In this document: positions 8,896-57,843 of the stretch, piece after piece
Numbering within the stretch: position 1 is the stretch's first letter
Layout: each line of letters opens with the position of its first letter
DNA from: Polytrichum commune
Taxonomy: Eukaryota; Streptophyta; Polytrichopsida; Polytrichales; Polytrichaceae
DNA: 64,000 nucleotides
Direction: 5' to 3'
Assembly (NCBI GenBank): GCA_950295325.1
Contig: OX485804.1
Coordinates: 51,150,001 to 51,214,000 of the forward strand
Notes under the pieces: model-generated
Told to the model about the DNA's origin: nothing
What the model saw: the letters and a program-made list of their open reading frames with translations, nothing else
Database searches by the model: none
Translations under genes and position numbers: made by a program

Positions 8896-8925
8896 CACTC
8901 GAACTTTGTCAACTACAATTTATTA

Positions 8926-9473
8926 GGGCCAAGTTCCATGTGCCGGTCCGGGTCCATTTTTTTCAAAATAAATGGGTGGGCCGGTGAAAAGAGGGTGGTG
9001 CCATGTGCCCATCCTTCTCACCCAAGGACCGGTACCCCCCATGGATGGGTGTCCCACATTTTGTGTTGTGCAAGAACGGGTGCCAAAGGACCGGCAGTCC
9101 TAACGGTCACAAGAAGGACATGTGCCGGTTAGAAAGCTCTGGTGACCGGATCGGCCGGTCACCTATCGTACACCCTTGGATACTAAAGGCCACTTTGTTC
9201 TTCTAGTCCCTTCTTTTGAGGAGTACTCCTAGGGAACGTGTATTTTAAGATGTTTTTAGAATCTAGAGAACCTTCATTGCCGGTGACCTTCATAAAGTGT
9301 CATGTCTTATCACTCACCAAATTTAGTTAGAAAGTAGGAAATCGAAAAAAACCGGCACCCCACATAGAAGTACCCCTCCATAAAATGGATGATGTCACCC
9401 ATTTTTTGGATGATGTCACCCGTTTCTCACCCATCCAAAAAACGGACCGGGACCGGCACATGGAACTTGGCCC
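8926..9473. mobile_element. Tourist/PIF-like MITE, TTA target duplication
   Basis: Inverted ends GGGCCAAGTTCCATGTGCCG (left) and its complement at the right are flanked by TTA (8,923-8,925 and 9,474-9,476). The 548-bp length and 3-bp TTA duplication fit PIF/Harbinger-type MITEs. The interior repeats the ACCGG motif many times. It lies 30 bp to the right of the foldback element. Confidence 0.7.
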
Positions 9474-9479
9474 TTATTA

Positions 9480-11290
9480 GTGGGTGCAAACAGTAGACCT
9501 GCCCAAATGTACAGGTTCCCAAAACCTAAACAATGTTTGGCGTTGGCTGTCTTGGCCTTCTGTCTAAAAAAAAAACAAAAAAAAACAAAAACCATGTAAC
9601 ATTCTAATCAGGGTCATGGCAGGCGTGAGCACTATTAGAACGGCGGCCAGGGCTAGATGCTCTCCTCTTTGAGCTTGGGCCCAAAATAAGCCATGGCCTT
9701 AAAGAGGCAGGATACGCTTCTACATAAATTATTGGAAACTGGGTCCTTATAGCTTTGAAATATTTGGAAATATGGTAGCACCAAGGTATCCTGCCCTATT
9801 ATAGAGAACTACTGTATGCCGCCCTATTGTATTTAGTATCACTTACTCTTTGGAATTACGCAATGCTGTAACAATTTACTGTATATATCATGTTTGGACG
9901 TAACATGAATTAGTTATGAGATTTTGAAGTGTTATGTTAGGTTAATGTATGATGGACATAGTGACACCTCATATTAGATTTCAAGTATGCTCATTCATAG
10001 AGAATAACGGTTGCCATCGTTGTTCATGAGTCTTGGAACCAACACCTAGTGAGCCAATGACACAATAACTTGATTCTAAACACCCTCATCATCATGTGTC
10101 TTGAATCCGACACTCTAGCAACCAATAGGACAGAATAGGAAGAAATTTATCTTGTTCTTGAAATCATGCTTACCTTGTCATGTTTAGAGAGATTATGTTC
10201 TTGTGTTTGGTGCACTAAAATGGTCCTATTAGTGTGGGTGGAAAATTAGCTTGGAAATAATTAATGTGTTCCACAATTATTTCATAGTCAAGATGAAATT
10301 AACGTGAGTCTAAGACATTTGGGCCCTCCAATAAGTCTTCATGAAGACTTATGACCAACATATTGAATATAAATTATAGGACAAAAGTAGCATAAAATAA
10401 AATAATCATGCACATTAACTTTGTACTAGAATATAGCGTGGGTTGAAAATGAATGTGACCCACATTAATTCTTATTACGAGAATCACTATGGCTCTCAAT
10501 AATGTGACTATTTAGTGCACTTTCCTCCTCCCATGTAAGTACCTCTAGTGTCCCGGGAGATTTTTGAACACAATCGACTGAGATCCTAGTGTTTTCAAGT
10601 CCAACCATTTACATGTTGACATCTTTTGGCTTTTCTTTATGAATTTAGGTATGTCTCTAAATTCCTCTAAAATGATAATTTAGTAATTTTCTTGAACTCT
10701 TGATTTTCAGCTAATTGATTCTCAAACTCAACCGGTTACTCCCTAAGTAGCAGTTGGTTCTCCCCATTCATTGAGGGCCACTTCACACACGAGATTGCGA
10801 GCCCATGACCATTACACTTCAAGCACTCTCTGTGGTGGAACAAACGGAGCTGGTCCAAGTCCTTTCTTCACACTACGCTTGAGGGACCAACGGAGCATGG
10901 GAATGCAAGATGAATGTAAAGTCTACATGGATTCCTACATGGCATCAAAATGGATCATGTTTCATGGTCACTTGGATTATTTTCAAAAACCACCTCTTGA
11001 AGGTAGGCCTAACACATAACCGGGAGACCATGGCACTCCGAATGCTCACAACCATTGATTTATTCTATTCTATCATGTGTGAGGACCCACGTGAATAGAA
11101 ATAGCATTTGGTTGAGGGTCCCGTCACATATGATTTCACACTACACTTTAGGATCCGTGAGCACACTACATGATTTTGAAGGTGTATTAGGACAACCTTT
11201 GAACACTTTCTTTTGGGCTCTGACAATTTCATGGTCACGGCTCTTGGCTTGTGTGTGAAGTGGTCCCGAATGCTTCTAAATTTCCTTCAT
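9480..11290. other. Gene-free stretch of copy 1
   Basis: No supported gene is seen; the equivalent part of copy 2 is about 58,400-60,440. A poly-A/CAAAA run lies near 9,568-9,590. A 233-bp segment found only in copy 2 (58,821-59,053) is missing at 9,891. A segment near 10,560-10,790 resembles 38,290-38,850 upstream of the minus-strand two-exon gene. Confidence 0.5.
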
Positions 11291-11669: not shown

Positions 11670-12604
11670 ATGGCCAGTAACTACATCTGTGAGTCGATTG
11701 CTCGTGGCGTTCACAAAACCATCCGGCAGGCAGCGAAGATACCTTACATGATGGAGGACGAAAAGACAGTGGCCACACAGGAAGGATCCTACTTCAACCG
11801 ACTCGAAGGAGTATTGGGTGAAGAGACATACAAGCAGGGTTGTCTATCCCGACGTCATGATGGTGTCATGCCGTCATGACGTGTCGTGACGGACCCCTCC
11901 ATCACGACACAATAGGGTCCACGTAGGGTCAACCTAGGGGGAAGCTAGTAGGGTGGGTAAAATACTTACCTTCTTGCCAAGGTGGCGTCCTATGTGGCAG
12001 AAAAGGCCGACGTGGACGTGGATATGCCTAGCGCCAGGTAAACCATTTTGCCACTCTGTCTATCATTCTGTTAAAATCAAAGTAGTAAAATATGACTAAG
12101 GAGGGTGTGGGGCGGACGGGGGCGGACGGGGGGGAACGGGGTTGGACGCGGGGGGGGGGGGGGGGGGGAACGGGGGGGAATGGGGACGGACGGGGGTTGG
12201 GAACGGGGGCGGGAACGGGGGCGGATGGGGGCTAGTAATTTTTTCCCCACTTTACCTCTACTTTGCTGACATGTCATCACACGTGGACATCTTACATCCT
12301 ACGTGTCCGAAATGGGGTAATGTAATTACACACAGAATTTGGTAAAATTCAAGTCCGTCAGGATAAAGACAACATCCGGCATAATGTCGTGACGGATACG
12401 TGTCGTGACGGCACGACATTATGCCGAGATTAGCCTCCGTCACGACACAATAGACAACCCTGCATACAAGGCACTGTGTGCAGACATGGCTGATGTTGTG
12501 TTGGAGACAATCTATTACTGTCAAACGGAACTCGTCAGTCTCGGTGACAATCTGTACGAATCGTGAAAAAAACAGAATCCTAATTTCGACCACAATGAGG
12601 AGGT
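11670..12604 (+). pseudogene. Two-exon family, broken member: exon 1 only, split by a transposon
   Basis: The ATG at 11,670 opens the same exon as the intact gene at 60,826 (MASNYICESIARG…). The frame is interrupted at 11,835-12,462 by a hAT-like insertion. After it the exon resumes (GCACTGTGTGCAGAC) but carries a TGA where the intact copy has CGA (near 12,562). The segmental duplication ends at the exon's donor site, so exon 2 is absent. It is non-functional by three independent lesions: insertion, stop and loss of exon 2. Confidence 0.85.
11835..12462. mobile_element. Non-autonomous hAT-like element, 628 bp
   Basis: Ends CAGGGTTGTCTAT and ATAGACAACCCTG are inverted, with an exact 8-bp duplication CATACAAG at 11,827-11,834 and 12,463-12,470. 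The segmental copy 2 shows the empty site (AATACAAG, 60,983-60,990). CAGGG-type tips and an 8-bp duplication are hallmarks of hAT elements. Subterminal GTCGTGACGG-like motifs recur on both strands near each end, as expected of transposase-binding repeats. The interior is a G-rich run (12,100-12,240). There is no transposase ORF. Confidence 0.9.
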
Positions 12605-13518: not shown

Positions 13519-13921
13519 TCAATGAGGTTGTGAGAGCCTCGTGTCTATACCAGCGAGTGAACCTTGGGATATTGCCTGAGAGATTACAAAGTCATGTAAA
13601 ATCTGGAACGGAAAGTGAAAATCTTGGCGATGGCTATGATAGCCACGACCATGATCCCTACAGCGAACATGACTCTCACGGCGACCATGACTCTCACTGT
13701 GTCTAGAGGAGATATAAGCGGCAGAAGACTTGTTTGAGTAGTATGCGTTGGTATCAGGAGATGCTTCTTCAGCTAGGCGTCGTTTGATCTTGGTTTCTTC
13801 CTTGAGTAAACGGAGTTGAAGATTCGCAAATGTACGTTCATCCAACGGAGTGCTATCCCAAGTAGTAATGAAAGAATCAAAGCCTTCAGGTAAATTGGTG
13901 GTGAGCTTGGAGATGAGCATG
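13519..13921 (-). pseudogene. Copia gag, C-terminal part (left of the 17.3-kb insertion)
   Basis: The minus-strand frame starts MLISKLTTNLPEGFDSF and continues through LDERTFANLQLRLLKEE, which is the plant copia gag (UBN2-type) signature, then an Arg/His/Ser-rich tail. The N-terminal part lies at 31,191-31,623. Across the insertion, FNND on one side is followed by MLIS on the other, in phase, once a 2-bp duplication (TG on the plus strand) is counted once. The nucleocapsid knuckle and pol that should follow are not readable, so the retroelement is truncated. Confidence 0.85.
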
Positions 13922-13950
13922 TAACACTATATTCGTTAAATTGAGACTTT
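13922..13950 (+). repeat. Left 29-bp terminal inverted repeat of the 17.3-kb element
   Basis: Begins TAACACTATATTCG and ends GAGACTTT. All 29 positions are identical to the reverse complement of 31,162-31,190. It abuts copia gag codons directly. Confidence 0.93.
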
Positions 13951-14040
13951 TTGGGCATTTTGAGACATTCACATAAATAAGAACAAGGATAAATGGAACA
14001 CATATTGGAGAAAGTTGTAAGATGCGAACACTTTGTGTCG

Positions 14041-14330
14041 GGTATTTAGAACAAGAACCCCATTAATAACTCATATTTGGGATTGTTTAGGATGAGCAAT
14101 CCAAACCTTAGGCCAAATTGAAGGGGAAATCTTAAAACATTCATATTATCGCACACAAAATATGAGATCTTGTATGAATATGTTTTAGGTAGGGCACTCC
14201 AAACCCTTAGACCATATTGAAGGGGAACTATGTGAACCAATATAATATAACATACAAAATATTCCAAACTCATATTTGTGATGGTTTAGTTAGGGCAATC
14301 CAAACCTTGGACCATATTGAAGGGGAAATC
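14041..14330 (+). repeat. Left subterminal tandem repeats with degenerate palindromes
   Basis: Three related units of about 100 bp each contain a degenerate palindrome (GTTTAGGATGAGCAATCCAAAC near 14,078 is written here as GTTTAGGATG, then AGCAATCCAAAC) followed by ATTGAAGGGGAA. The others lie near 14,184 (TTAGGTAGGGCACTCCAAAC) and 14,287. The phrase ATTAATAACTCATAT and its palindrome recur at about 23,690-23,740. Confidence 0.7.
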
Positions 14331-14551
14331 ATGTGACACTTATATTATTGCAAAAAAAACATACAAAGTATGGCATGTAAAATGCATAGCATGCTAACAC
14401 CACACATACATTGGATAGTGCGACCCAAAATGATGTTGCCTATGGCCCAAAACCCTATGCCTACTATGGCCTATCTAGCCTCGGAGATTGCCTCTTTTTC
14501 TTTTGCTTTTTTTTCTTTTGCCTTTTTTTCTTTTGCTGCGGCTTCTTTTGC

Positions 14552-15261
14552 TCACATTGCTTCAACATTCCTGAAAATCTCCGCCCCGCGACTATAGCCA
14601 TTCTTGGGGTGACCGCCATCCATAAGACATTTTGGAGTCCGTCGGCCGCCCGAAATATACGTCGAAGAATTCGAATACGATGAAGTGGATTGTCTCGCAT
14701 TTCTGGTCATGGCGTACATACGCTCGAACTCGATGGACGCACTAGACCGCATAGGTTTACGGGTGGGAGCAACCTGCAACGCGTCATTGCAAGACCACAT
14801 GTGTTAGTTTAGGGAGGAAGACCCAAACGTGTCACACGATCATTTTTTAAGTGCAAAATGATTGTAATGCGCGGTTAACCATGTTTTAGAGAGGGGGGGG
14901 GGTTCACCTTGTCACCGGGGGCGTTCCCATCGGAGTTGGCAAGGAGGGGCAAGGCGTCCCGCAAAGGAATAGGAAGGGTTCCACTCTTCGTTGGCCGTGC
15001 GTCCATCCGCAGCCGCCGTTGAGGTGTAATACTTCCGCCGGGCCGAGAGGGGGATGTCCGGACGCATTTGCGATTTATGCCCTTGAGCGGCGACGGGGAC
15101 GGAGATCGCCGTAAGATTTGCTTGGGTGGGGGGCTATCGACGACGCCGGCGTCAATAGGCTCCTTGGAGTAGTCAATGGTTGACGCGGCGTCGTAAACGG
15201 TCTCGTAGAAGAAGCTCCCCAACTCTGACTCGCTGACGATGTCAATCGAGGGCTCCAAACG
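14552..15261 (-). CDS. Basic protein of unknown function (two visible exons, 5' end uncertain)
   Basis: Two minus-strand exons are linked in phase 0. 15,261-14,908 follows an acceptor (TTGCGCCAG) and ends at AAG before GTGAAC; 14,773-14,552 follows TTGCAG and ends in a stop. The first visible exon has an acidic/serine start (SIDIVSESELGSFFYETVYD) and a Ser/Pro/Arg-rich stretch (ILRRSPSPSP). The second is Arg/Ser-rich (RKPMRSSASIEFERMYAM). A Lys/Glu/Ala-rich frame lies just beyond the stop. No domain is recognised. It lies in the 17.3-kb element, just downstream of the FCP-like gene and on the same strand, so it may be further exons of that gene or a separate accessory gene. An upstream start exon was not found. 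Confidence 0.45.
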
Positions 15262-15400
15262 CTGGCGCAAAAAAGGAAACGAAACAAAACCCAAAGGAAG
15301 AGGGTTTGCTAGAGCGCGTGAAAATCAAGATACATATGAAGCATATATTACACAAAGTGGGCGGGCGCATACACACACACACACACACACACGTGCTGCC

Positions 15401-16150
15401 TCAAATGAGCTTGTTAAATTTCGCGTGAGAGAACAACTCTCTGTACAAATGGTCTCGTGGATCCAAGTATCTCTCGCCTATCGGATTATTCCTAACAAAA
15501 TTGTTTACAGGTAGTCCGCTTCCCCTGAGCGCCTGGAGGTATTTACTAAGGTCTAACAAAAATCGGTCCCGGACCTTCTCGACCGTCCACGTAGGGCAAA
15601 CTATTAAGTTGGCCGTCGGGTTCAACATGTTCTTTGCGGCGCTGTCGTCCACCATGAGCGTGTTCTCCCGGGTGGGACGGACGTCGTAGGGGACACCTAT
15701 CAATGACGGACGCTGGTCCCAAAAAATGGGCTTCAAGACCTTGAGGTATTGGGGGGAAGCGGGGTTGTTTGGTTTTTTGACGACTTTGCCGTCCGGTGTG
15801 TACAATATTCTACAGGCTTCCTGTGCTAGGACCATGCAGGGGGGCTCGATGCCCTTGAAGATGAACTCCACGACTGCATTGGTGTTCTCGGCCTTCATGG
15901 AGCTCCACACGACCACCCACCATCGTTGTTGGGCGATCTGGAGGAAGGTCCGAAGCCACGGGCGGAGGTGAACTAGCTTGCTCTTTATGAACGTGGGCGG
16001 CCCGTCGTAATTCGCGTCCTCGGGCTTGCAAAAGGGCACCGTGGGGGTCCTCGGGCAATGAACGCATTGGACGAGGACCCCGTTGAGGTCTAACACCAGG
16101 AACCGGGTCTTAGGCGGCAAAGGTGGAACGGGTAAAATGGGGGGGACCAT
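15401..16150 (-). CDS. FCP/SCP-like HAD phosphatase domain protein
   Basis: This 249-residue open frame starts at ATG 16,150. After a proline-rich lead it has the HAD motif I region FLVLDLNGVLV (residues 17-27). The usual DxD is DxN here (D21, N23). W-S-S at 82-84 fits motif II, and MVDDSAAKN (166-174, D168-D169) fits the acidic motif IV. The spacing matches the FCP1 homology domain of C-terminal-domain/NLI phosphatases. Loss of the second Asp, the usual general acid, suggests altered or absent phosphatase activity, although DLNG variants are common among plant FCP-like proteins. Its place inside a large transposon, on the same strand as the DGQHS gene, suggests a captured or element-borne accessory gene. 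It could also be the 3' part of a longer transcript from that gene. Confidence 0.75.
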   Translation of the reverse strand: MVPPILPVPPLPPKTRFLVLDLNGVLVQCVHCPRTPTVPFCKPEDANYDGPPTFIKSKLVHLRPWLRTFLQIAQQRWWVVVWSSMKAENTNAVVEFIFKGIEPPCMVLAQEACRILYTPDGKVVKKPNNPASPQYLKVLKPIFWDQRPSLIGVPYDVRPTRENTLMVDDSAAKNMLNPTANLIVCPTWTVEKVRDRFLLDLSKYLQALRGSGLPVNNFVRNNPIGERYLDPRDHLYRELFSHAKFNKLI

Positions 16151-16673
16151 CGCGCTACCTTCCTCGCTTCTTGGAGAGGCCCGGCGGGGAGCCGCGACGC
16201 TATGCTCCGATCCCTATGGAGACGAGCGACATAAGGCGGGGGAAGACTATGTCATGCTATGTCCACTTAAAGTGAATACAATATTTTCTGTGAAAAATAC
16301 AAGAACCACTATGCATAGGCGGCCATACAAATGCAAGAGGGGGCAAGAGGAAAAAATATACATTTGAACACGAAAACAAACATAAGGGCACAAAATAATA
16401 ATTTTATTGTTTGCAATGCTCTATGTACAAAATGCCTAGGGGTGCGAAGCCGCGTTGAACGATCCGTTCAAACTATCCTAATTCAACATCTACAAAATTG
16501 TGTGCACGCCTCCAAGTTCGAGTAAAATCGTGGGACGGGCGACGTTAGTGATCGTCGGGGGGGGGGGGGGGGCTGAAGGGATGCGAGAGCGGATGGACGG
16601 GGTGGGGGCAGTTCCTCCTAGCTAGGGGGGACACGACCACGGCAACAAGACAATAGACCAGGAGTTTGGGTCG

Positions 16674-17082
16674 AGCGACCCAAACTGAGGAGGTCTCAGT
16701 GTATTACCTCTCCCTGGTCATGCATGGACGCCATGGAAGCCTCCACCGCCTCCGCTTGTCGTTCTCTCTCGCCACCGCCTTCTCCGACGATGTCAGCACC
16801 CCTCTCCTGCAAGCGCTCAGTGTCAGGACCTTCTCCTAACCCAACCTCCGCATGTGCATCATGCATAGGTTCATCGATTGGGATAGGAGTAGAGGTATCA
16901 CCAGGCCCTCGAGGTCCTTCAACATCAGGCATGGGTGTGTCTCTTTCAGACCCATGCTGGTCCATTGAAGACTGAGCGGTAACGGGGTCTGGGTCGGCCG
17001 ACCCAAACTCTCGTGCATCATGAGATTGGCCTTGTTGCACTGTAAGGGGGGGGGGGGCGGGTTTGGGTCGGACGACCCAAAC
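16674..17082. repeat. Three 22-bp palindromes at the 3' end of the DGQHS gene
   Basis: Copies lie at 16,674-16,695 (centre AG), 16,987-17,008 (diverged, GTCTGGGTCG left arm, inside the last coding part) and 17,061-17,082 (centre GA, one arm change). The first begins immediately after the last stop, and the third lies in the probable last intron, next to a poly-G run. Confidence 0.85.
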
Positions 17083-18308
17083 ATGTGGGGGTCGTCCTGC
17101 TGATGGGGCGGGGGGATCACCAGGGGCGGCCGAAGTGGTGGGGGGGTCACAAGTCTAGAAGACCCGGGAAGGCGCCATATATTGGGGTCATCCGCTTGTT
17201 GAACCGGCGGATACGGACGGACGTGGGGGGGAACCATGTGCTGAAAGTTGAAGGAGGATTGCGGCACGGGCTGCGGAGGAATGTTCTGGGGAGGGAAGCC
17301 GGGGGGCAAGTGTGGAAATGAGCCCGGGGGAGCCACCACCAAACCCTGCGCCCACATGCCTCGAATCACTTGCGTGATCAAGTCCGCACTAGTTGGAGGT
17401 TGCGCCAATGCCCGCAGTCGCTCTTGCTCCAATAAGAGAGCCCTTAGCTCTGCCACTTCGTTCCGCACTGAGGGTTCTTCAGCAGTGGCCTTTTGCAAGC
17501 GGACGCGTTGTTCTTCGTCCCTTAACATCTTCTCGTTGGCTTCTTGCACGGTGAGGACTTCCGGCTTCACCTTCACCATCCCTGCGAAGGCACCTGGAGA
17601 GGGAGGGTCCGACCTGAGCCGTTTCGCGAGCTCCATGTCGTCCTCGTCTTCGCTGCTAATGGCAATTGTCTCCTCGATGGCATAGTCGCCATAGAGTTTC
17701 TTGCCTTTTAGTTTCCTCCTCTCCCTGAACGCGGCAGTCGCATCCCTGGAGTACATGTCGCGGGCATCATCAACCGTCAGGACGGGCACCAACTTACTTT
17801 GTGGAGTTGCTACCCGCATTGCCTTCTTTCGTTGAGGGGCTTCAGATTCCTGAGTGAAACCTGTTCCCCCTTCTTCGACCTCGCCCTCCACTTTAGCCTC
17901 TTCTTCCTCCTCTTCCACCTCCTCATCCTCCTCCTCCTCCCCCTCCTCGTCACGCGGTCGCCGAGAGGATGTGCCTGGATGCACTTGGACCAGAGGCTCT
18001 GGTACAGCAACTGGAACCCTTATGGCCAACTCTTCAGGGTTGACACGCCTCGCCTTATCCAGCGGGCTCTCACCCCCTTCAACAGTCTCCTCGGCGTAGC
18101 TCCCAGGGATCCAGTCTAGTATATCTATCTTCTTCGAGTTAGATTTTTGGGCCTTGTAGAATTGGATGTCATTAAGGTCTACATAGCTGTACACGTTCAG
18201 CCCCAGCATCTGCAGAAATCCCACCAGATGTTATTATATGGCATAACATGTGATTCCACCGAAAAGGGGAAGTACATACAAGACCTAATATCAATTGCAA
18301 AGGTTATA

Positions 18309-18402
18309 GTTTGGGTCGAGCGACCCAAACTAGCATCAGTGTTAGTTTGGGTCGAGCGACCCAAACTAGCATCGGTGTTAGTTTGGGTCGCTCGACCCAA
18401 AC
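18309..18402. repeat. Three 22-bp palindromes in an intron of the DGQHS gene
   Basis: Positions 18,309-18,330 (AG), 18,345-18,366 (AG) and 18,381-18,402 (CT), spaced exactly 36 bp with linker TAGCATC-G-GTTA. They fill the centre of the intron between exon 2 (ends 18,432) and exon 3 (starts 18,209). Confidence 0.95.
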
Positions 18403-19871
18403 TATGAAAACAATTATGGTAAGGAGCTTACCATGCCAGCGAAGACGGGCTTGGTGCCGCCGAAGACGTTGAATATACAGTCCCCTCTTCTCGTCAAGGC
18501 CCTCATTATTCGGAGATAGAATTCCATCCGCAACTCATCCGAATGGTATATGGCATATTTTGCCTCGTCGTAGAGGGACTTACTTGTGCCCAGGCCTTCT
18601 GGAACTTGGAATAGTTTTTGCATCCGGGTTATGGGGTGGTTCTCCACCTTCAGCAAGGTTTCTTTGAACACAAAGTACAAGCACAACAAATTCATGACTT
18701 TGGTTTTCTTGTCCTTTAGTGTCGTGTACACCCCCTCCGCCGGTGCAGCAATGTAGTGAGACTTAGACACCGCATACTCAGGCTGCAATTTCCTCACAAT
18801 TTCATACACCTGCTCTGCTCTCCTATCCTCTACTATCCACAGCCACATATCGACCTCCCTAAGCTTAGGGCTTGCATACTCCACGAACTTCGACATGAAG
18901 GGCTCGTAGAAGGGTGTACCCATTGTGCCCTCAAACGTACTCCCAGGAATGCTCCGGAAGTCTATTATACCAAAGGGGAACCGGTCCGCTGCTCTTACTC
19001 GTATTTCTTTCCTGGAATCAAGGCCGGGCCATCCCTGGATTTTAATAGGGTCAAAAGCGACAAGGTTGAAATGCGCATCCCCCTCAAAACTTACAATCTT
19101 CTTCTCCTTTATAAAGTTTGAGAAGGCACGCGTCGAGTGTTCTGGAAGAGCCAGGTTCTTCCCACCCTTCACCAGTTTTGACTTTAGGAAGTCTTCTCCT
19201 GCCTCCCTGATCAGAGCTGCCATGGATGCACTGGTGAAGTTGTATTCAGCCTTGAACGCTCTCCAGTTCACCTCGTTCACCTCGTCATCGACAAAAATGT
19301 TCTTTTATGGGATTAGCTTCTGCAGCTCCTGGACGATCGTTGTTTTCTTCTTCCTATTCTCCGCCCATTCCTTCATTGTGTAGCATGGAGGAACAAAGGA
19401 TTTCGGCTTGGTGAAGACTATTTTGGGGTACACCCAAAATCTCTTAGGGGTCGGGTTGTTGTGCAAGATGTGCGTTGCCGCCTTCCCCATTTCCGCCTCC
19501 GAAAGACCCTGCAGACTTCTAAAGAATTCTCTCATGAGAGGCTTCATCACCTTGAATCGAGAGGACGAGTTGAAGAGGTTGCATGTGTCAGGATCCATGA
19601 GATCCCCTGTCTCGTGTTTCTCAAACACTGTCTTCCACTTCTGCCAAACCATGTCGGATGATGTAATCAAGTAGATCTCTCCTCTTAGCTCATTGTACTT
19701 CTTTTGCTTGTGACTTGAATTGTCAATTGAGGAGAACTTGTTTATCATTTGGTATTTGAAAAGCTGCACAAGAGCATAGAATGCGTGTTAATTCTCAATA
19801 TGTTGTTTCCAAACAAAGAAGAAAAATGATGAACAACAAACTGTGTAGACAAACACAAACTAAAACACAAG

Positions 19872-20053
19872 GTTTGGGTCGAGCGACCCAAACTGTATGA
19901 AGAAACACAAGGTTTGGGTCGAGCGACCCAAACTGTATGAAGAAACACAAGGTTTGGGTCGAACGACCCAAACTGTATGAAGAAACCCAAAGTTTGGGTC
20001 GAGCGACCCAAACTGTATGAAGAAACACAAAGTTTGGGTCGAGCGACCCAAAC
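19872..20053. repeat. Five 22-bp palindromes in a strict 40-bp tandem array (intron 1)
   Basis: Starts at 19,872, 19,912, 19,952, 19,992 and 20,032, with centres AG, AG, AA, AG, AG. The linker is TGTATGAAGAAACACAAG-like. The array lies wholly within the intron 20,076-19,764. The exact period implies tandem amplification of a palindrome-plus-linker unit. Confidence 0.95.
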
Positions 20054-21429
20054 TCTGTTTGAGAAACAATGCTCACCTCCCACTTTGGATTCTTGTCTTT
20101 TGCATTCTCCCTTTCCTTGGGAGGCCGGCCGTAGAACTCCCACACATCCCGCGATGCCATGATGTTCCTAATCCAAGAAGCTTGATATGCCCGCTTCCTG
20201 TTATTCATGTTGAAATAGCGGGAGATATCGCTCAGCCGGGTTTCGTCGTCCGACCACACGTCCAATGCCTTCCATACCTTCAATTTTTCCTTTAGACCAT
20301 TAGGATCATTCCACTCCGTCATCAGTTGAAGTTTCTTTGAAGCTTCAACACTGTGCTGACCGTCAATCAGCCAAAAATCGCCTTTCTCTATAGAAGGCCA
20401 CATATCCGGTGTAGGCATTCTTTTGTGTCCCTGAGGCATGACAACAATAGTCTGGCTATCATGTTTAAACTGGTCGCTCACCATCTGGGCGATTAACCAA
20501 TCAACATACGCATCTTCCTTTGCCCGAACGCACTTCTCTGGTGGCGCTAGGTGGCATTGTGCGATGTTGACATCAAACTTGAATTCTCTGCCCATGAAAA
20601 AATAATGTAAACACTTGGTGTCGAAATTGTTGAGTATTTTCTGGATCTCCGATGGCTCCACTCCTTCCCCGGGCTTGGGCATACGTAGCTCCGGTGAAAC
20701 AGGCTCATCTGTCATGGCATATACTGACTCTCTCGGCCTCTTAGATGGTGTCGTCTGCCGGCTTTGTGATGGCGTCGGTGTTTCACTATCAGCAGGAGTT
20801 GCCGTAGGTGTTGTTCTCCTCGAGTCAGCTGGAACCGGTCGGGGCTTCCTCATTGTTTGAGGTCTTGACGACCCTGCGCCCTCTTCAGCAGTCGCCTTGC
20901 GCCTCACAGCTTGTTGAGATTTTGACTTGCTTTGCTGGGTCTTGTTTATTGCGTTGATTGCCTGCTTAAGTTTAGTGAACCTGGTTGCAACCTTCGTGTT
21001 TGAAATGATCGCATCTATGAAGATTGTATCCGGTTTAACAATGTCTGGCTCAGCGCAGGATTCCTTCACGTATACCGGATCGAATGGCTCGGCTTGCTCA
21101 TTCATGAACATGTGCACATTTTCCAGAGAAGAGTTTTCCAGGATGACGTCAACGTGCTCTCCTAGAGCATGAACTGATGCCACCTCCCATCCCGTCAAAG
21201 CATCCCATGTGTGTTGCTCCTCCGTGCCAACCTTCAAAACAAGGAGGATTTTGAATTGAGCTGCCTTTACTACAAGAAAGGACCATGCAATTACAATGTC
21301 TTCTTTTGCTACGTAGGATTGGTTTTTAGGAGTTTCGTGCTCCTGCCAGATCGCGTCTGGTGCCGGCTTGAACCATCGTTCTCCAGGTCTTTTCTTGGGG
21401 GGCATCTGCAAGTAGAAATACATATGTTA

Positions 21430-22180
21430 GTTTCGGTCGGGCGACCCAAACTCTTTCAAATCATATAGGCTTATGTCTGGGTTTAGTAACATTTATATAT
21501 GGGGTTACTTTTCACAGGTTTGGGTCGAACGACCCAAACCTGTGCCTACAATGGCTAATGAATAATATATTATTTGGCTACGAAAACCAATCTTTAAGTT
21601 CATGGATACAACAATCATCACGAGCTACTGTTCTAGTTGTGGGTCATTTCATTATTGCTTGGGTGTTTGAGTTGTTGTTTATAAGTGTAAGTATTGTTCG
21701 TAAGCAGTAAAAATTTACGCAGAGTTTGGGTCGTTCGACCCAAACTTTGTAGCGGTATGGAATGATCGGCTATGGCCTTAGATCATACCCAAGATGATGA
21801 TTACCTAAATTATGAATTACCATTTCATGCGCTGTTTGGGTCGAACGACCCAAACTCTGCAGATGGATTGGGTCGAGCGACCCAAAGCATGTGCTAGTTT
21901 GGGTCGAGCAACCCAAACTCTGCAGATGGATTGGGTCGATAGGGTTAGATATTCACCCAAGATGATGATTAAATTAATTATAAATGAACATTTGATGCGG
22001 AGTTTGGCTAAACCCTAGACCCAAACAATGCTTATGGTTTGGGTCGAGCGACCCAAACTCTGCAGATGAATTGGCGCCCACGACCCAAACCATCTTTAGA
22101 GTTTGGGTCGCTCTACCCAAACCAGTTGCAGAGTTTAGTGTTTTAGGGTTTCAAACTGAAGTTTGGGTCGTCTCTCGAAA
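21430..22180. repeat. Cluster of about nine palindromes upstream of the DGQHS gene
   Basis: Full or near-full copies lie at 21,430, 21,518, 21,724, 21,834, 21,868 (shortened), 21,897, 22,037 and 22,101, with half-copies near 21,933, 22,080 and 22,161. The one at 21,518 extends to a perfect palindrome of 15-bp arms (21,513-21,544). Centres AA, TT, AG and CT all occur. It covers the putative promoter/5'-UTR of the minus-strand gene. Confidence 0.9.
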
Positions 22181-23689
22181 CACTTTTGATTCCAGAGACC
22201 TTTATAATGTGTTTACGCAGCATATACAATGCTTATGCATTGTAGATGCTGCGAAACTCTAAAGAAATTGACACACATAAAGAAGTTGAAGAAATCACCT
22301 TGCTTTGCAAACTACACAACAAGCTGCTGTTGGAAGCAGTTCTAACAAGCTAGTCTTGGAAGCTGATTCTAGAAAGGATTGGATATCAGAAAACTAAGAA
22401 CGCCTCACAAACATTCACTCTGAATTGAAGAAGCTTTCACAAACATTCACTCAGAATTAAACAATCCCTCACAAACATTCACTCTGAATGTAACAAGTGT
22501 TTACAAACATGAACAAAAAAGCTATCTGAAGGCCACACATGCACACTGATTTTCGAACAATCATTCTAATTCCGAAATCACTCTACACTCACACATGAAT
22601 GTTTCTAAGACCAGGAGGAACTGACACAACCACCTTGAAACAACACTCACACTCCAAAACAACAAAGACGTTCTGAAATGGCTAAAATGTATAGACTTTA
22701 ATACAAAAACAAACCCTAAACTCATACTACACTCAGAACAAAAGAAGAGGAGGAGTGAAAGAGAGAATGAGATAATGATGAAGAGGGAAGGAGAGAGGGA
22801 ATGCGAGTTCGACAAGGAGAGAGAGAATGCAAGGGAGGAGGCGGCGCTTTCAAGAGCGGCGGCGCCTCCAGAAAGTATGAGGAACGTACAAAGGAGGAGG
22901 AGCTTGGAGCGGAGGAGAGAGAAGGAGAAAGTGCGGAGGGGAGAGTGAAAGGGGGAAGGTCACTCAAGGGCGGGACCCATTCGGGCCGGCGCCTTTCGTG
23001 TCCGTTCGGCTCATGGCCGCCAAGTGTCACGGGGCGCTCCATGGCCCAAACGAATACACAATCTGAGCCATTGGAGAGCCCCAGGCCCATCGACGGTCGA
23101 TAGGCCTCGCAGGTGGGTATCCTTTAGCCACCTATCCCATACCATCCTTGAGGATACTAAAAAACCTTTATAGCCTAAGGTTTTTAATTTAATGGTCCCC
23201 CGATGGATTTGCTAATATCAAATAATGAAACTGTATTGGTTTTGTAATTTTAGTAATCTACACATATGCATGAATCGAGAATGATAGATACTAGACTAAG
23301 AGGAGTATTTAATAATTATATTGCAATCCTCGTAGGCAATTACATAATGGAATAATATAACTATGGTAACCATTTACACAATGAATGGTTTCGAGTTATA
23401 TATTGTAATTATCTATGAAGGTTGTTGGTAAAGGACAATGCTATAGCCTACGATGGATCCGTTAACACATACCATTGAACTAAATCTAATTATACAAGTT
23501 TATGTAGTGTCATTCATTATAATATGGAATTATGCAATATTAAGTGTTGACAACTTAATATCATTGTTGTTTGTGAAAAGCAACAAAGATGTTGTTTGAT
23601 TTATAGCATGATGGAACATTAACATACTTATTTACAAGTTTACATATTTATGAGATACAAATATATTGAAGCGGGTGTTTTTGCTGAAG

Positions 23690-23813
23690 AACCCAATTAA
23701 GAACTCATATGAAGATGGTTTAGGTAGGACGACCCAAACATTAGACAATGTTGTTGTTGTTCATATATTTAGTTGAGACAAGATAAAGTCTACAAATATT
23801 GAATATAGTGATA
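23690..23813. repeat. Internal degenerate subterminal repeat and terminus
   Basis: 23,693-23,740 repeats the left subterminal phrase, with palindrome variant GGTTTAGGTAGGACGACCCA. 23,785-23,813 matches the right terminus at about 21 of 29 positions (AAAGTCT … GAATATAGTG). This suggests that the element is a composite of two related units or contains a nested, decayed relative. Confidence 0.5.
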
Positions 23814-24002
23814 GTAAATGAGAGAAGCACCATGTATACAAATATGAAGCTATCAAATACTAATATGTGGAGTTCAACATTATATGAAGCCATTTAAGCA
23901 ATCACTTTGTTGTTGGATGATCCCTCCACATATATTAAACAACATATCTTATTAGGAAATGAGGCACAAATTACAGTAGATGGTGTTCTATATGGAAGCT
24001 AC

Positions 24003-24550
24003 ACGGGTAGGTCACTCTAAGGCATTTTTGTGCACCACGTGCGGCTCAGGGTTTTTTGTTTTGGGGCTATTTACCTTCAAGGGTTGAATTAAAGCCTCCC
24101 TATAATTACTTGAATTTCAAAAATGGCCCATTTGTTTGCACCCTTCCATTACTTATATTGTCCAAGTCACTGCAATTTTTTGTACTCTATATTCCTTTTA
24201 AGTAATAAAAGCTAATCTACTTCCTGTTAAGGGAAACCATGGAAACAAAGAAGGGTGCAAACAATAATATCATTGCAAACAAAGTTATGAAGAAAACACA
24301 TAGGAGACCATAGCAAACATTATACTAAACATACCTTCTAGGAACCTTATCTTCAGCCCCTATATTAATTTTACAAAAAAATAATGGCCCACATTTTATG
24401 TCCATCTAACTTACTTATAATGGGATTGTCTACATTTAATGGCCCCTTCATTATTTGGAATTCCTTTATAATTTTTATTTCAAATGATTTCAATCCTCTC
24501 TATATTATGCCGCACGTCGTTTTTAAAATGCACTAAGTGACCTACCCGTG
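24003..24550. mobile_element. Second copy of the MULE-MITE family, inverted, 548 bp
   Basis: Both ends match 6,438-7,236 in reverse orientation (left ACGGGTAGGTCACTC, right end CTACCCGTG). It is flanked by its own 9-bp duplication, GGAAGCTAC (23,994-24,002) and GGAAGCAAC (24,551-24,559). It lacks an internal stretch that the 799-bp copy has. It is nested in the 17.3-kb element, so it inserted after that element's central region was assembled. Confidence 0.85.
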
Positions 24551-24574
24551 GGAAGCAACCCTGAACAACTACGA

Positions 24575-24620
24575 GGGTGTAGGGTGTAGGGTGTAGGGTT
24601 TAGGGTTTAGGGTTTAGGGT
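24575..24620 (+). repeat. Interstitial plant telomere-type repeats
   Basis: Three GTGTAGGG-type units are followed by three TTTAGGG units, 15 bp to the right of the MULE-MITE's target duplication. TTTAGGG is the canonical land-plant telomere unit. Such short runs occur at repaired double-strand breaks. Confidence 0.75.
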
Positions 24621-25729
24621 ATATAAATGTGTCTTGTTGCACTCGAAGCCATAAATGAATGGCGCATAGGTCAAATGAGGGGGCCAAGTCGCTTGTGGTT
24701 CTAAAAACAAATGTATATAGATATCACAATAGTCTAATTCATGAACATGAACGTTGGTTACATTTCATGTTATGTTTGTTATGTATGTTATGTTACGTCG
24801 TAGATGCGTTCATATCTAGTGTATAAATCTCTAAATATTTTATTTAGTGTAGTGACACTAGAACACACCAACATGTATTTAAGGACATGTTCTGCTCAAC
24901 TTGCATTGAATAGATACAACTATATATGTTTAGATTTTTCATCAAACATTTGTTAAAACAAATAAAGTTGACTACATTTTTTTTGGCAAGCCAAATCAAT
25001 AAAAACTATAGGTACAAAACACAACTACAATAAGTATGATATTTAGTGTTTGATACACTAAATACAAGTGAATACACAATATATCAATAACCATATGAAA
25101 GTAATAAACATTAAATATAAGCTATAGTAATATGTGGCATTGACATGTTTGAATTTAGTGTTAGTAAGGATGTGAAAAGAAGAAATATACGTGAGAGTAG
25201 AAGGTAGCAACACATTTACTTCTAACACTAACTGTCATAGGATTGAAAATTAATGTTGAGCATGTAAGGGTGGTAACCATAGTCCGCCAAGAGCCTAAGG
25301 CTAGTGTAAATGCAGCCTACAAAATTTGTGACTTAGCCTATAAAATTTTGAAAGTGTAGGACAAAGAGCCTATGGACAATTTTAAAACATAGGATATCAA
25401 CCTATGTGGTAAAAAACATGTAGGAAATTTTGCCTACAAAGTTTTTAAAAGAGCGGATTTTAGCCATTCATCCTTCTTCAAATTGGGAAATTAGTTGGCC
25501 TAAGTACATATCTTTAGGCTAATACTCGGGGCTCTTGAGTGGCACATAGGCGGATATCAATAATAGCCCTGACTCCCTCCCCGTCGATCTTTACAAATAC
25601 CACAGCCCAAGCCCCATCACCGCATAGAGGTTGAATCAGAAGATGGTGAGGACTTTCACCCTTAAACTCATTTGAATTTTAGCAACCTTTCATAACTTAT
25701 AATCAACTCTTTAAAAAGGAGTTGGTTAA

Positions 25730-25784
25730 TCCTTGGCCTTCAAACGTGGTGAAGGGCTTAGCCAGGTTCAATTCCTGCCAAGGA
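25730..25784 (+). other. tRNA-like fold without D-arm, or SINE head
   Basis: TCCTTGG (25,730) pairs with CCAAGGA (25,778-25,784). A CCTTC/GAAGG stem and a T-arm-like CAGG-TTCAATT-CCTG lie between. GGTTCAATTCC fits the pol III B-box consensus, and TGGCCTTCAAACGTGG is a possible A-box. At 55 nt it is too short for a normal cytosolic tRNA. A tRNA-derived SINE or a chance fold are both possible. Confidence 0.3.
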
Positions 25785-26492
25785 TACCACTTAGTACTCA
25801 AATTTTGAATTTAAAGCCTACAACATTAAAAGATATGAAGGATTTTAACCTACTAAAAATTAGTTTTAAAGGCAATTGGCAGGTAACTTAAAAACTCAAA
25901 AGGTTTTCAACTTACAAAAATTTGATATTGTAGGATGCAACCTATGCCATGAGGGAAATAGCCTATGCCCTTTTAAAGAGGTAGGCAATTAACCTCAATA
26001 ACTTCAAAAACTTTTCGGACACTGGTGGTAACAACACTACATATAATCAAATCCACACATCATATTTTGTGTAGTTATTTAATAGCGGAATTAGGAGGTT
26101 AGTTGTCCAAGGTCATTTGATGGTTGGCGCCACGAAGAGGCAAGCTAAATATGGATGCTCTATTACCAACAAGAAGCGGGAAATTCTGTCAGAAGGTTTG
26201 AACTTAGGTTTAGGGTTTACGTTCGGGCGGGAAAGGGATCCAAAGAGGAAGGCCAAGGCGGAGGCGGGTAGTATAAAGTACCAAACCCCCCAAACTTTGC
26301 TCCTTTTTTCTCATCTCTCCATTCTGAAATGGTTGCAAGCTCTCTCAAGTAGTGGTGGAGTGCAAGGTTCGTGTATGCATCCGTTGATGAGTAGCTAATT
26401 ACAACAGCCATGCACGGCCTGAATTCTTCCAATTAGTATCCACGTAGCTGAATATGGAAGATTACCGCAATTTAAGGCGGAATTTGCGGAAT

Positions 26493-27400
26493 GTTTGGGT
26501 CGCTCGACCCAAACCCACCCCCATAGTGAGGTTTGGGTCGAGCGACCCAAACCCACCCCCATAGTGAGGTTTGGGTCGAGCGACCCAAACCCACCCCTAT
26601 CACGGGCTGGGCCTGGATTAGCAAGCCCATCCTGTCACGAGGTTTGGGTCGCTCGACCCAAACCCACCCCCTCTCACGGGCTGGGCCTGGATTAGCAGGC
26701 CCATCCTGTAACGAGGTTTGAGTCGCTCGACCCAAACACACCTCCATTGTGAGGTTTGGGTCGAGCGACCCAAACCCACCCCTGTCACAGGTTGGGCCTG
26801 GATTAGCAGGCCCATCCTGTCACGAGGTTTGGGTCGCTCGACCCAAACCCACCTCCATTATGAGGTTTGGGTCGAGCGACCCAAACCCACCGCTATCACG
26901 CGCTGGGCCTGGATTGCCAGGCCCATCCTGTCATGAGGTTTGGGTCGCACGACCCAAACACACCTCCATTGTGAGGTTTGGGGCGAGCGACCCAAACCCA
27001 CCCCTGTCAGGGGTTGGGCCTGGATTAGCAGGCCCATCCTGTCACGAGGTTTGGGTCGAGCGACCCAAACCCACCCCTATCAAGGGCTGGGTCTGGATTA
27101 CCAGGCCCATCCTGTCACGAGGTTTGGGTCGAGCGACCCAAACCCACCCCTATCAAGGGCTGGGTCTGGATTACCATGCCCATCCTGTCACGAGGTTTGG
27201 GTCGAGCGACCCAAACCCACCCCTATCAAGGGCTGGGTCTGGATTACCAGGCCCATCCTGTCACGAGGTTTGGGTCGCTCGACCCAAACACACCTCCATT
27301 GTGAGGTTTGGGTCGAGCGACCCAAACCCACCCCTGTCATAGGTTGGGCCTGGATTAGCAGGCCCATCCTATCACGAGGTTTGGGTTGCTCGACCCAAAC
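26493..27400. repeat. Palindrome satellite upstream of the transposase gene (about 16 copies)
   Basis: Palindromes start near 26,493, 26,531, 26,569, 26,642, 26,716, 26,754, 26,828, 26,863, 26,938, 26,974, 27,049, 27,123, 27,197, 27,270, 27,305 and 27,379. Two linker types alternate: a short one (CCACCCCCATAGTGAG-like) giving 35-38-bp spacing, and a long one containing GGGCTGGGCCTGGATTAGCA and GGCCCATCCTGTCACGAG giving 73-75-bp spacing. The central dinucleotide flips between AG and CT, so individual units have orientation. The long open frames here are repeat translations, not genes. Confidence 0.95.
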
Positions 27401-27570
27401 CCACCCTCATGCACACAATGGGGATGTGCATAGATGGATCCTGAATAAACTGTTGTGCGCTCCATTTTTTGGAACCCATCGATATAATATTCATACAACA
27501 TTTGTTATGATAAGGTTTCTGTGTTTTTCTATTGGACCCTATAGCTTTTGTCAATTCTTTACAAGGTTCC

Positions 27571-30500
27571 ATGTTCATGTGTGTAGGCAAAATGGATGGG
27601 TATACTGGAAGAGGGTATTCGTCTGGAGAAGACATGGCCACTTGGCCATCTGCATCTGAGGAAGAGCTAGACATTGTCGGGGAGGCTACTATGGATGAGA
27701 GTTCAGATGAAGAGCATTTCGATATACCTTCGCGTTCCGTACCGGACTGTCCCATTCCAGAGTGTGCCGTGCTTTCAAGAGCTTCATGGGTGAATTTGGA
27801 TGTATTACTTCTTAATGACAATGGGGTTGTTGTGGCGGAGGGTATCTGTCGTAACACCCATCCACAAGATTGCATTGATCAAAATCCGCTTGGCACCGAG
27901 GACGTTGGGATTGTCATATTGGAGTCACTCGTTCCTTCTGAGGTGGATCCCACTCATAGGTTCTCCCTCCGCAGGTGGCCATTGAGGAATGTCACGACTG
28001 ATGGAGTTAGCTTGCGTGAACATGAGCAACGACACATGCAACTCGAAAAGGAAATGCAATCAAACATGCGGCCACGCAAGGGTCAAAGAAAGTACGATAC
28101 TGTGGCACGTCCTTCTCCATCTGCAACTGATTGTAAACGTCAAAGGCTGCTTGGGGAGGAGTCCATAAGAGAAGTTGCCACAAAGGATTGTTGTGTGCAT
28201 TGTTGTTGCCAATTGTTTCCAAGGGATAAATTGAAGGCCATCCGTGAAGAAATGTGGCTTGGAGATTTTCGTCTAAGATCCACAAAAAAACTTGATGTCC
28301 ATAGGGCAATACATGTGAATGGGACGGGTCGCAAGGTAATCACCATTGAAAGCATAGACGTGTGTTGTAAGGCATGGTACACCATTTACGGTGTGTCGAA
28401 GGCGGACTTCTATAGACAAGCTGCTTATGCCAAGGAAGGCCGCCGGTCCCGTCACCATGGGAACGTGGATTTAAAGAAACCTAGGGAAGCAACAAGGCAA
28501 GCAACGGCAACTCTAGCAACCATCATTGTCCCCCTTGCTGATGCAATGCCGCACAAAACACGCACACTCACAACCGGTGAAAAGGTTGTGGAGAAAGTTC
28601 TTCCCACAAGCACAAAATGGAAAGACATATTGTTGGACGTTAATGCAGTTGGCGAGAAGATTGGGTTGGAGCCAATTTCATTGTCAAAATTAAGTGCAAT
28701 CAAGAAACAAAACTTTAGCGAATACATTACAAAAAGACGAGGGGACAAATTTGCCAGGTGCTCTAATTGCGAGAAGTTGAAGCGCCTCCAGAATGCACAC
28801 ACGATGGGTACCGAGTCATATGCAGCGCATCAATTGAACTATTTCAAGCACGTAAACATGCAAGAGGCACACCGTAATGATTACTACACAAATAGAGCTT
28901 TGTCCATCTCCAGGCCCTTGGAGGTTCTTACGGTCATCCATGACAAAATGGACCATGCCAAAACAGCCTCCCCATGTTTTGCAAATCGAATCAAGGCCAC
29001 GGATGGGTTTTTTAAGTTGCCTGTATCGGTTACAGGTGAACTTCGAAACAATGTCATGACATACCCTAAATGTTGTGGTTTTTTATTCCGTGATGTACTG
29101 GAGAACATGGATTCCTTCATAATGGTTTATTCATACATAGATGCTAATCACGTTGGGTTGGCATTGCAGGAATGATTGCACATGGACACGGTGATGTCAA
29201 GTTTGCTCATTATGCTCTTGATTTGTATCCAGCGGATTCAAACCACACGATAGGATCATTTGCAAGGCTTTTACGTGATTTAGAGAAACCACCAGCCTAT
29301 TCTTCAGGATTGTTATTTGAGAACGCGGGTTCAACACCTTTATATGAAGCGGTGCTGGATGGAAAAGATGTATGCTTGCATTCGTTGCCCGAGCCACCCA
29401 ATGAACCCGTGATTGCCAAGAAGTTGCCTCCAACTTTGCGTGTCCAATTGGACAATTGTGCCAAGGACAATAAAAGCAGATATGTATTTGCATATTGGTC
29501 GTTGTTGGTTGCAAAAGGCATTTTCAAGGAGGTTTTTGTGTCCTTCCTATTGGTAGGCCACACGCACGATGATATTGATGCATCTTTTGGGCGGTGGAGC
29601 ATGAAGTTGCGGGAGGAGGATTTTCCTACAATCCCATTATTGATGAAGTCGTACATGGATTTGGAGAACGTTCCCGTCATCCCCCATATGATTGAGAAGG
29701 TGCCAGACTTCAAGGCATTTATGAAACCTTATATTCGAAGTAGAGCTCACCGATTGATCGGGCATACGAAGGCACAACAATTCCGGTTCTACATGCGTGA
29801 CGATGGTGTCCCGGCCATGCAATACAAGTTGTTGTGCACGACACAAGACTGGAGCCCGCCGGAGGGTCTTCTTGTGTGGCGCGTGGATGCGGATGGGAAG
29901 ACCATGTTACCGGATGGGGAGCCTAGCCCTTGTAAGCCAATAGCCATGAAGAATTTGGAGGATATTTTGAAAGATATATCAGGCTTCATACAATATTGGG
30001 AGAGTTTGAAGATAGCGGATGTTGGCGGATCATGTTGGCATCGTTATGGGAGTTGGATACATTATTGGACACGTGTTCGTGCCGCCTTGGTAGACCTCCA
30101 CCAAGATAGCCCTCATACTTTGAGGCATGGATTTTGGCCACAAACACGAGTCGATGTACAAGCTTCAGAGGCTAGTCTTTTGGGAAATGGAGAGGTTCGA
30201 GAGGAGTTTGATGTGGACGACCATTACGTGGGGCCTGCTAGTAGTCGTCCGCCACCATCTTTCCGCATTGCAGTGGATTGTCATGAAGGATATATGCTCA
30301 TTTTGCGTCCTGGAGACGAGACATATGTGAAGCCAGTGTGGGTGGCAAGAGCTTTGTCCAAACCCAATTTTGTAACTTCCAGCCCTCATTTTCGACAAAT
30401 ACAAGTGGAGTACTACCGACCGACGGCAAGGAATGAAGATGTGATTCGGCATTATACAGGCTGGGATACAAACCCTAACTTTCAGTGGAAGGTGGATTCT

Positions 30501-30656
30501 GAGCACGGTCCATCTTGGGTAGATACAGATTCCATATTCATAGCATGGAAACCACGGAAAAATCATAGTGGATCAGTGTCCATCCCTCAAAAGTACATAA
30601 CTTTTGCAAAAGACAACCTTGCTCGGATCACAGAAGAAGCAACCCACGTTGAATGA
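27571..30656 (+). CDS. Candidate transposase, DUF7869-like, 997 aa, one intron
   Basis: The frame runs from ATG 27,571 (alternative 27,592) to 29,077, then a 92-nt intron (GT at 29,078, AG at 29,169), and resumes in frame to 30,656. The donor is inferred from phase. N-terminal half: an acidic lead, a Cys cluster (CCVHCCC near residue 206), WYTIYGVSKADFYR and CSNCEKLKRL near residue 397. C-terminal half: IHDKMDHAK (D458/D461), MIAHGHGD after the splice, QLDNCAKDNKSRYVFAYW (D597) and GHTHDDIDASF (D636/D637/D639). This is the motif order of DUF7869 proteins, and the three acidic sites look like an RNase H-fold D-D-D/E core. It lies directly downstream of the palindrome satellite and is the only intact large ORF of the element. 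The transposase role is inference. Confidence 0.7.
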
Positions 30657-30975
30657 GAAGTTGGTAGGATTGTGTTAGCATGATTATAGTGTAAACAGTA
30701 ATTCTACGAACATATATTACTCATATGTGTGCTCTTCAAAATTGGGGCAGAGTTTGGGTAGAACTTACGAATACTATATTGTTTTGGAGTTGGATGAATA
30801 TCCATTTACTATATTTCAATACAAATGTGAAGTTCATTTTTTTATTAAGTTTGGGACTAAATTGTCCATTGAAAAAATATGCATTTATTACATGCACTTT
30901 GTATGTTGCAATGTCTATATTCTATGGAGCATGCTAATAATAGAAATCATTATATATATATTTTTGGGTGAAACT

Positions 30976-31060
30976 TGTTTGGAGTGCTCTACCCAATGTG
31001 TTTTTGTTGATGAAATTGGTGTTGAGTGCTCTACCATATGTGCTTATGTCCGCACATCAT
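30976..31060 (-). repeat. Right subterminal motifs mirrored to the left end
   Basis: TTTGGAGTGCTCTACCC (about 30,979) and GTTGAGTGCTCTACCAT (about 31,021) are reverse complements, with changes, of the left-end motif GGTAGGGCACTCCAAA (14,187). Mirrored subterminal repeats are typical of transposase-binding arrays. Confidence 0.6.
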
Positions 31061-31161
31061 AGGTGTGGGATATTAGAACATTTAATATATTTGAGATTGT
31101 TGACAATATAGTTTCAGGCATCTTCATGTTGTTTGATCCATATATTAATTTGAGACTAGAG

Positions 31162-31190
31162 AAAGTCTCAATTTAACGAATATAGTGTTA
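31162..31190 (-). repeat. Right 29-bp terminal inverted repeat of the 17.3-kb element
   Basis: Ends CGAATATAGTGTTA on the plus strand, followed at once by TG and copia gag sequence. It is a perfect inverted match to 13,922-13,950. Confidence 0.93.
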
Positions 31191-31623
31191 TGTCGTTATT
31201 GAAGGTAGTGTCACCAATCTCGGCAAGCTCACTGAGAATCAACTGGAGCTGTCAAATGTACTCCGAGATAGATTGTTGAGGCTATAGCTTAGCATTGAAG
31301 AAATGCCGTTGAAGCTCATGGACATCCTCACCGGACTTGTGTTCATAGATGGATAAAAATGTATTCCAAATTTCGGTAGAAGTAGGACAATGTAGTAAAG
31401 GAGTCAAGATACGACGCTCAACCAAATTACAGAGGAGAGTGAATGCAGAATATTCACGAGCCTGTCATTTTTTTTTATCTGCGGCTTCAGCAAGGGTTTC
31501 AGTGCCATTGACAATGGTAAGGATCTGCTTGTATTGAAGCAAGGACCTCATTTGCCACTTCCAAATGTGGAACTCATCGCCATTGAAGCGTGCGATACCG
31601 CTGAGTTCTTTGTCTAGCGACAT
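31191..31623 (-). pseudogene. Copia gag, N-terminal part (right of the 17.3-kb insertion)
   Basis: Minus-strand start at 31,623 (MSLDKELSGIARFNGDEFHI), then KWQMRSLLQYKQI, and after a TGA and further lesions QLQLILSELAEIGDTTFNND just before the transposon. This is the standard copia gag opening followed by the UBN2 region. Stops show that the retroelement was decaying, but the insertion junction itself is clean. It is preceded on the minus strand by an LTR-like block at 31,916-32,190. Confidence 0.85.
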
Positions 31624-57813: not shown

Positions 57814-57843
57814 CACTCAAACTCCGTCAACTACAATTTATTA

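Follow-up and report, generated by a model that had tools for sequence, protein, structure and literature searches.

The window analysed here is a stretch of 64,000 nucleotides of Polytrichum commune DNA (GenBank assembly GCA_950295325.1, contig OX485804.1, positions 51,150,001 to 51,214,000), and it carries a DNA transposon of 17.3 kb at positions 13923–31189 of the window. The element ends in perfect terminal inverted repeats of 28 bp with the tip AACACTATATTCG. The left repeat, AACACTATATTCGTTAAATTGAGACTTT, lies at 13923–13950 on the plus strand and the right repeat at 31162–31189 on the minus strand, both recognized by their inverted match and their recurrence throughout the genome. Outside them stand the two copies of a target-site duplication, ATGT, at 13919–13922 and 31190–31193, which were assigned by comparison of the flanks and of relatives of the empty site. 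An earlier note on this DNA had described perfect inverted termini of 29 bp starting with TAA. The 29-bp match (13922–13950 and 31162–31190) is indeed perfect in the window sequence, but its outermost base on each side is target DNA, so that the ends start with AACACTA and the earlier delimitation was off by one base per end.

The genome (408 Mb, 64 contigs) was searched for the 29-mer with up to three mismatches, which gave 788 forward and 802 reverse matches, 1,590 in total; the reversed 29-mer used as a control over the whole genome at the same threshold gave none in either orientation. Among the first 100 matches listed, all of them exact, 21 pairs of plus and minus neighbours lie less than 50 kb apart, the window included, and 13 of these 21 are spaced by 16–22 kb.

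The four bases before AACAC were compared with the four bases after GTGTT at both ends of each pair. A literal 4-bp duplication is present in the window and in 19 of the 20 other pairs picked with the 29-mer, the exception being L009/L010 (ATGT/ACAT), and it replaces the 2-bp TG duplication proposed earlier. All of these duplications, that of the window and the other 19, have the form ANNT. This is a by-product of selection, since a match to the 29-mer already dictates both the T and the A. A genome search for the 28-mer preceded by a base other than T found 339 exact ends, and all ten pairs picked in this way have a 4-bp duplication (GTAA, TATA, GAAG, TTAG, GATA, TTTG, TTAG, CCTA, CGAA and CATA), so an ANNT target rule was dropped. 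The two lists can be compared over C1, C2 and the initial 10.6 Mb of C3, for which neither is truncated: there AACAC follows a T at 100 exact ends and one of the other bases at 80, which makes this position target DNA. The element is therefore delimited as 13923–31189 with a 28-bp repeat, and its target duplication is 4 bp long without a fixed target sequence. Terminus pairs 27–43 kb apart (C1:16319790, C1:27865736, C3:8670998 and five others) have matching 4-bp duplications in 8 of 8 cases; each pair therefore seems to bound one very large copy, which may contain nested insertions.

The element interrupts a fragment of a copia-like gag on the minus strand. The left part (13519–13922) was recognized by its frame, a weak Pfam match and its relatives, and the right part (31190–31493) has the extent that aligns to the relatives. 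When the flanks are joined with a single ATGT, they match two uninterrupted copies in the genome at 516 of 561 and 517 of 556 positions, and the insertion junction falls within an ungapped alignment block against both. The earlier claim of an in-frame copia gag split by the element is borne out as to the split at the junction, the empty relatives and a frame that passes through. What has to be amended is that this frame is decayed, with three stops in about 200 codons (one stop in each of the two uninterrupted relatives), that the copia gag label comes from a Pfam match of 0.11, below the cut-off, and that ATGT and not TG is removed to restore the site. With 1,590 termini, 4-bp duplications and empty sites, the description of the element as a large DNA transposon of many copies, delimited by an interrupted retrotransposon gene, is well founded. 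Other features were seen in the flanks: three palindromes occur in the same order at 6123–10352 and at about 55825–59513, on either side of the element, which suggests two copies of another repeat, and a G-rich short-period repeat lies to the left of the element at 12094–12240.

The transposase gene is on the plus strand and consists of two exons. Exon 1 (27586–29035), delimited by alignments and with an uncertain start codon, contains the first Asp motif, IHDKMDHAK. An intron of 134 bp (29036–29169, GT...AG) was placed by comparison with the related frames L043 and L070, which have no intron here and which both give the same exon junction. Exon 2 (29170–30656) encodes a DUF7869 domain (PF25273, 6.8e-43) with the motifs QLDN and GHTHDDID. 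The alignments show conservation of IHDKMDxxKT, QxDNC...NK and GHTHxDxD, and in one copy (L041) Ser replaces the second Asp. We read these three motifs as a putative catalytic triad of Asp residues. Structure predictions reached a pLDDT of 31 for the whole transposase and 32 for its core, values too low for a fold, and sequence searches of the PDB with profiles of the transposase and of the accessory protein described below gave a best E of 0.41. All of the 150 candidates that were scored, from 1,491 at first look, match DUF7869, so that the genome contains at least 150 matches. The elements described here give this domain a likely role as a transposase. Viral contigs were searched for relatives and none was found. 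The sole match in a search of genome contigs was L070 (CADCWO010000071.1), an uninterrupted DUF7869 transposase frame of 963 codons filed under a cyanobacterial (Synechococcales) MAG, which is probably misbinned eukaryotic DNA.

The remaining genes are all on the minus strand. The accessory gene has three exons: A (20077–21405), with a DGQH motif and ParB-like by motif reading; B (18432–19763), with a methyltransferase-like end, also by motif reading; and C (17157–18209), defined by its frame and by comparison with a sister copy, with an uncertain 3' end. Neither A nor B gave a profile hit, and searches of Pfam, NCBIfam and PDB sequences with the accessory protein returned no match to ParB or to a methyltransferase. 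The ParB part had no match in plasmids, the methyltransferase part had one match in phages (E = 2), and no DPPY-like motif was seen in the protein. On its motifs, it may be described as DGQH/ParB-like and methyltransferase-like. In the window copy exon B has an in-frame TAA at 19305–19307; at this position many other copies have an open frame of 457 codons, and the stop of the sister copy lies elsewhere. Further downstream on the same strand are a gene for a NIF or FCP/SCP-like phosphatase (15401–16213; PF03031, 1.4e-15), with relatives in two other families, and an ORF (14875–15324) that is 93% identical over 138 aa in the sister copy. Phosphatases of this kind usually have the motif DxDx, and DLNG is read at its position here.

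Between the window and one sister copy, which has five stops in the aligned parts, dN/dS is 0.08–0.21 in the six parts where it is computable; in exon A dS is saturated and the ratio is not computable. The values of dS are 0.28–0.63 for the transposase and NIF parts and 1.2–1.5 for accessory exons B and C, and this higher dS suggests exchange of modules. The searches for accessory genes scored 134 of 1,035, 84 of 1,201 (A clade) and 88 of 806 candidates, and another search scored 150 of 965; the copy numbers are lower bounds. More than 300 stretches with an accessory gene were matched (134 + 84 + 91).

An unexpected feature of the element, absent from the earlier note's account of it, is a 22-bp palindrome, GTTTGGGTCG-NN-CGACCCAAAC, of which an exact search found 27 copies. 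Two of these are at 16664–17082, three in the B–C intron of the accessory gene (18309–18402), five in its A–B intron (19872–20053), four upstream of exon A (21518–22058) and 13 upstream of the transposase gene (26493–27327). Exact copies are absent from the 7,914 bp assigned as exons and from the 46.7 kb of window flanks, and the first and the last lie 2.7 kb and 3.9 kb, respectively, from the ends of the element. Many of the palindromes form regular tandem arrays. Genome-wide there are 9,231 palindromes of the window type and none of the reversed control; 77 of the first 100 sites listed have an exact terminus at a distance of up to 20 kb, and the other 23 do not.

DUF7869 transposases also occur in other families, and identity between the transposases of the families is 34–66%. 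The second family ends in ATGGGGATATTAACTAAAATGAG[A/C]C (95 ends when two mismatches are allowed), with 37 pairs of plus and minus neighbours less than 70 kb apart, 25 of them at 21–29 kb; all ten pairs read have a 4-bp duplication. An example of this second giant family, at C5:45513543-45538642 (L066-L068), has its own termini, NIF gene, accessory genes and palindrome. The third family, an element of 11.0 kb on C6, has the ends AACACCGGTTTCG; the single copy read is flanked by a duplication of TTCC, and no NIF hit was obtained in its stretch. The A family, on C7, has ends nearly identical to those of the window element and the duplication TTGT, again in one copy read. Identity to the window genes is 25–46% for the accessory frames and 40% for NIF in the A family, and 31% (over 118 residues) and 32%, respectively, in the second family.

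In the loci examined the palindromes follow the clade of the accessory gene, with the exceptions given here. The window arm is present in eight of eight further loci of the window accessory clade (the sister copy and seven others) and in none of the 18 rows taken for comparison from other clades and stretches. On C6, past the third-family element, window-type sites also stand upstream of a window-type transposase. The A family has the palindrome TTTACGGACG-NN-CGTCCGTAAA, found 1,147 times in the genome with a control of 0. Its arm is exact in four of six further A-clade loci and present in all six with up to three mismatches, and for 47 of the first 50 A-type sites listed, an A-clade accessory match is found no more than 10 kb from the start of the site. 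The window and A families have the same ends but different palindromes, and the palindrome therefore does not follow the termini. The second family has arms CCCACGGGTG (the 22-mer occurs 644 times genome-wide and its control not at all); a relative at 85% identity has the same arms, and relatives at 70–74% have CCCACGGGCG, a change that is present in both arms. Four further types of palindrome were found in the third family and in four loci whose accessory frames are 24–27% identical to that of the second family. Most types, these four included, were counted with an arm taken from the very locus concerned, and in the clade counts at three mismatches CCCACGGGTG/CCCACGGGCG and TTCCACTCG/TTTCACTCG/GTTCCTCTCG are not cleanly separable. 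The palindromes of homologous introns differ from family to family. Intron sites of the A element are located beyond the splice donors as read, yet inside stop-to-stop frames, and one site of the second family (f2r 4471) is inside an open frame with no evident intron. Beside the A-family element, C7:5147900-5153400 (L075, L045) contains 32 exact sites of a ninth type with AGGCCTCGG arms, mixed with 3 and 1 exact sites of two other types. Upstream of the L070 transposase frame are three pairs of related half-sites, one of them exact, with a 3-bp spacer.

The type of the element, which the earlier note could not recognize, can be approached through published descriptions. Sola elements are described as having a DDD transposase, a 4-bp duplication and variable ends, a length of mostly 2–9 kb with some above 15 kb, and as being present in the moss Physcomitrella patens, according to the passages on this superfamily in PMC10741241. 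The 4-bp duplication and the size fit this description, as would the three conserved Asp motifs of the DUF7869 transposase if they form the putative triad, and we consider the element to be probably Sola-like, as matched to the published description and not to sequences of proven members. The 4-bp duplication common to Sola (PMC10741241, in the part concerned) is found here in both the window family and the second family, and the inverted termini are variable, being 28 bp long here and different in two other families. The closest published likeness is Sola1-1_Ec32 of Ectocarpus, an element of 21.5 kb in which transposase and accessory gene are on opposite strands and the accessory product has ParB-like and DNA methyltransferase domains, according to the passages devoted to it (PMC12477816). 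Both elements are giant and have this opposite arrangement; the ParB-like and methyltransferase parts are published there, whereas here they are read by motif without profile support. The present element adds a NIF gene and clade-specific palindromes, and the passages on Sola1-1_Ec32 in PMC12477816 mention no palindromes. A literature search for palindromes in Sola elements, judged by titles, found none.

Could DUF7869 instead define a superfamily distinct from Sola? The only Pfam label is a domain of unknown function, a literature search for "DUF7869" found nothing, and the fit to Sola is one of description and not of sequence comparison. We nevertheless think a separate superfamily unlikely, given that the 4-bp duplication, the Asp motifs (read as a putative triad), the length above 15 kb and the variable termini match Sola as described in part of PMC10741241, and that the 21.5-kb Sola1-1 likewise has its accessory gene on the opposite strand in the account excerpted from PMC12477816. 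A CACTA (En/Spm) element, like the present one, is large, with short inverted ends and CACTA letters near the tip, but the tip here is AACACTA, so that the ends are not exactly CACTA/CACTG, the duplication is 4 bp and not 2–3 bp, and only DUF7869 is above the cut-off in the transposase frames; these differences rule out CACTA for practical purposes. Tc1/mariner was rejected as well, since the duplications are 4 bp and not the TA target duplication.

What binds the palindromes, if anything does? The half-sites are 10 bases long, the two-base spacer between them is free, changes in one arm are matched in the other, and the sites are placed in introns and upstream regions. These traits suggest that a DNA-binding protein of the element, most likely the accessory protein, acts on them as a dimer. 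ParB-parS offers a comparison: ParB has a DGQH-type motif and acts with palindromic sites in cis, and both features are found in the element, although no profile match to ParB was obtained and no role in segregation is suggested. That a dimeric accessory protein and its 22-bp 10-2-10 palindrome change together as a code of self-recognition, eight or more palindromes being found next to genes of this kind in a single genome, is a tentative proposal, to which we give somewhat less than an even chance.

The palindromes might alternatively be binding sites of the transposase, as are the subterminal repeats of En/Spm. The transposase also diverges between families, at 34–66% identity, and the largest array is directly upstream of its gene. 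However, the exact sites are not subterminal, the outermost being 2.7 and 3.9 kb from the ends, and the window and A families share termini and have transposases that are 65% identical, and still differ in their palindromes. We regard this alternative as unlikely, though it has the best standing among the other readings. Less likely still, and in our opinion improbable, are passive repeats spread by slippage with no protein partner. In favour of this reading, many of the palindromes form regular tandem arrays, and such arrays are self-homogenizing. Against it, similar geometry is found across clades, the change between CCCACGGGTG and CCCACGGGCG is in both arms, a single element has identical arms in different introns and upstream regions, and in the window element no site falls within an assigned exon.

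Returning to the accessory protein as the binder, we propose the following mechanism. The DUF7869 transposase would cut at the inverted ends and insert the element with a 4-bp stagger; the pattern of insertion is observed, and the catalysis is what we infer from the motifs. The accessory protein would bind, as a dimer, the 22-bp 10-2-10 palindromes present in the accessory introns and upstream of the transposase and accessory genes. Because related clades carry different palindromes, each clade would chiefly recognize copies of its own. Such recognition would most likely serve to keep the genes expressed against silencing by the host, in the way VANC does for VANDAL. Taken as a whole, this explanation, of a probably Sola-like transposon whose accessory protein recognizes its own palindromes and counteracts silencing, seems to us to have slightly the better of the argument.

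The VANDALs of Arabidopsis are Mutator-like elements. The motifs to which VANC proteins bind vary among related VANDAL elements and are tandemly repeated in their introns and upstream regions, and the proteins cause DNA methylation to be lost, according to the sections of PMC5735166 that treat them. Both systems have short element-specific motifs that are multiplied in introns and upstream regions and change with a protein encoded by the element; the arrays in non-coding parts of the present elements are clade-specific, with the exceptions given above. The VANDAL motif YAGTATTAY is shorter than the 22-bp sites described here, and the string 'palindrom' is absent from the main text of the VANC paper (PMC5735166, as far as that text goes). 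Loss of methylation belongs to the VANC system; for the present elements anti-silencing would be a predicted role.

If the proposal is correct, these elements would be an independent counterpart of the VANC/VANDAL anti-silencing system, built on another protein and on sites that are longer and symmetric. To our knowledge, self-recognition by transposons and their escape from silencing are known in detail for few cases. One genome offers here several pairs of protein clade and DNA site with similar geometry, together with natural point variants, and these pairs could be used to study the recognition code and whether VANC-like anti-silencing arose more than once.
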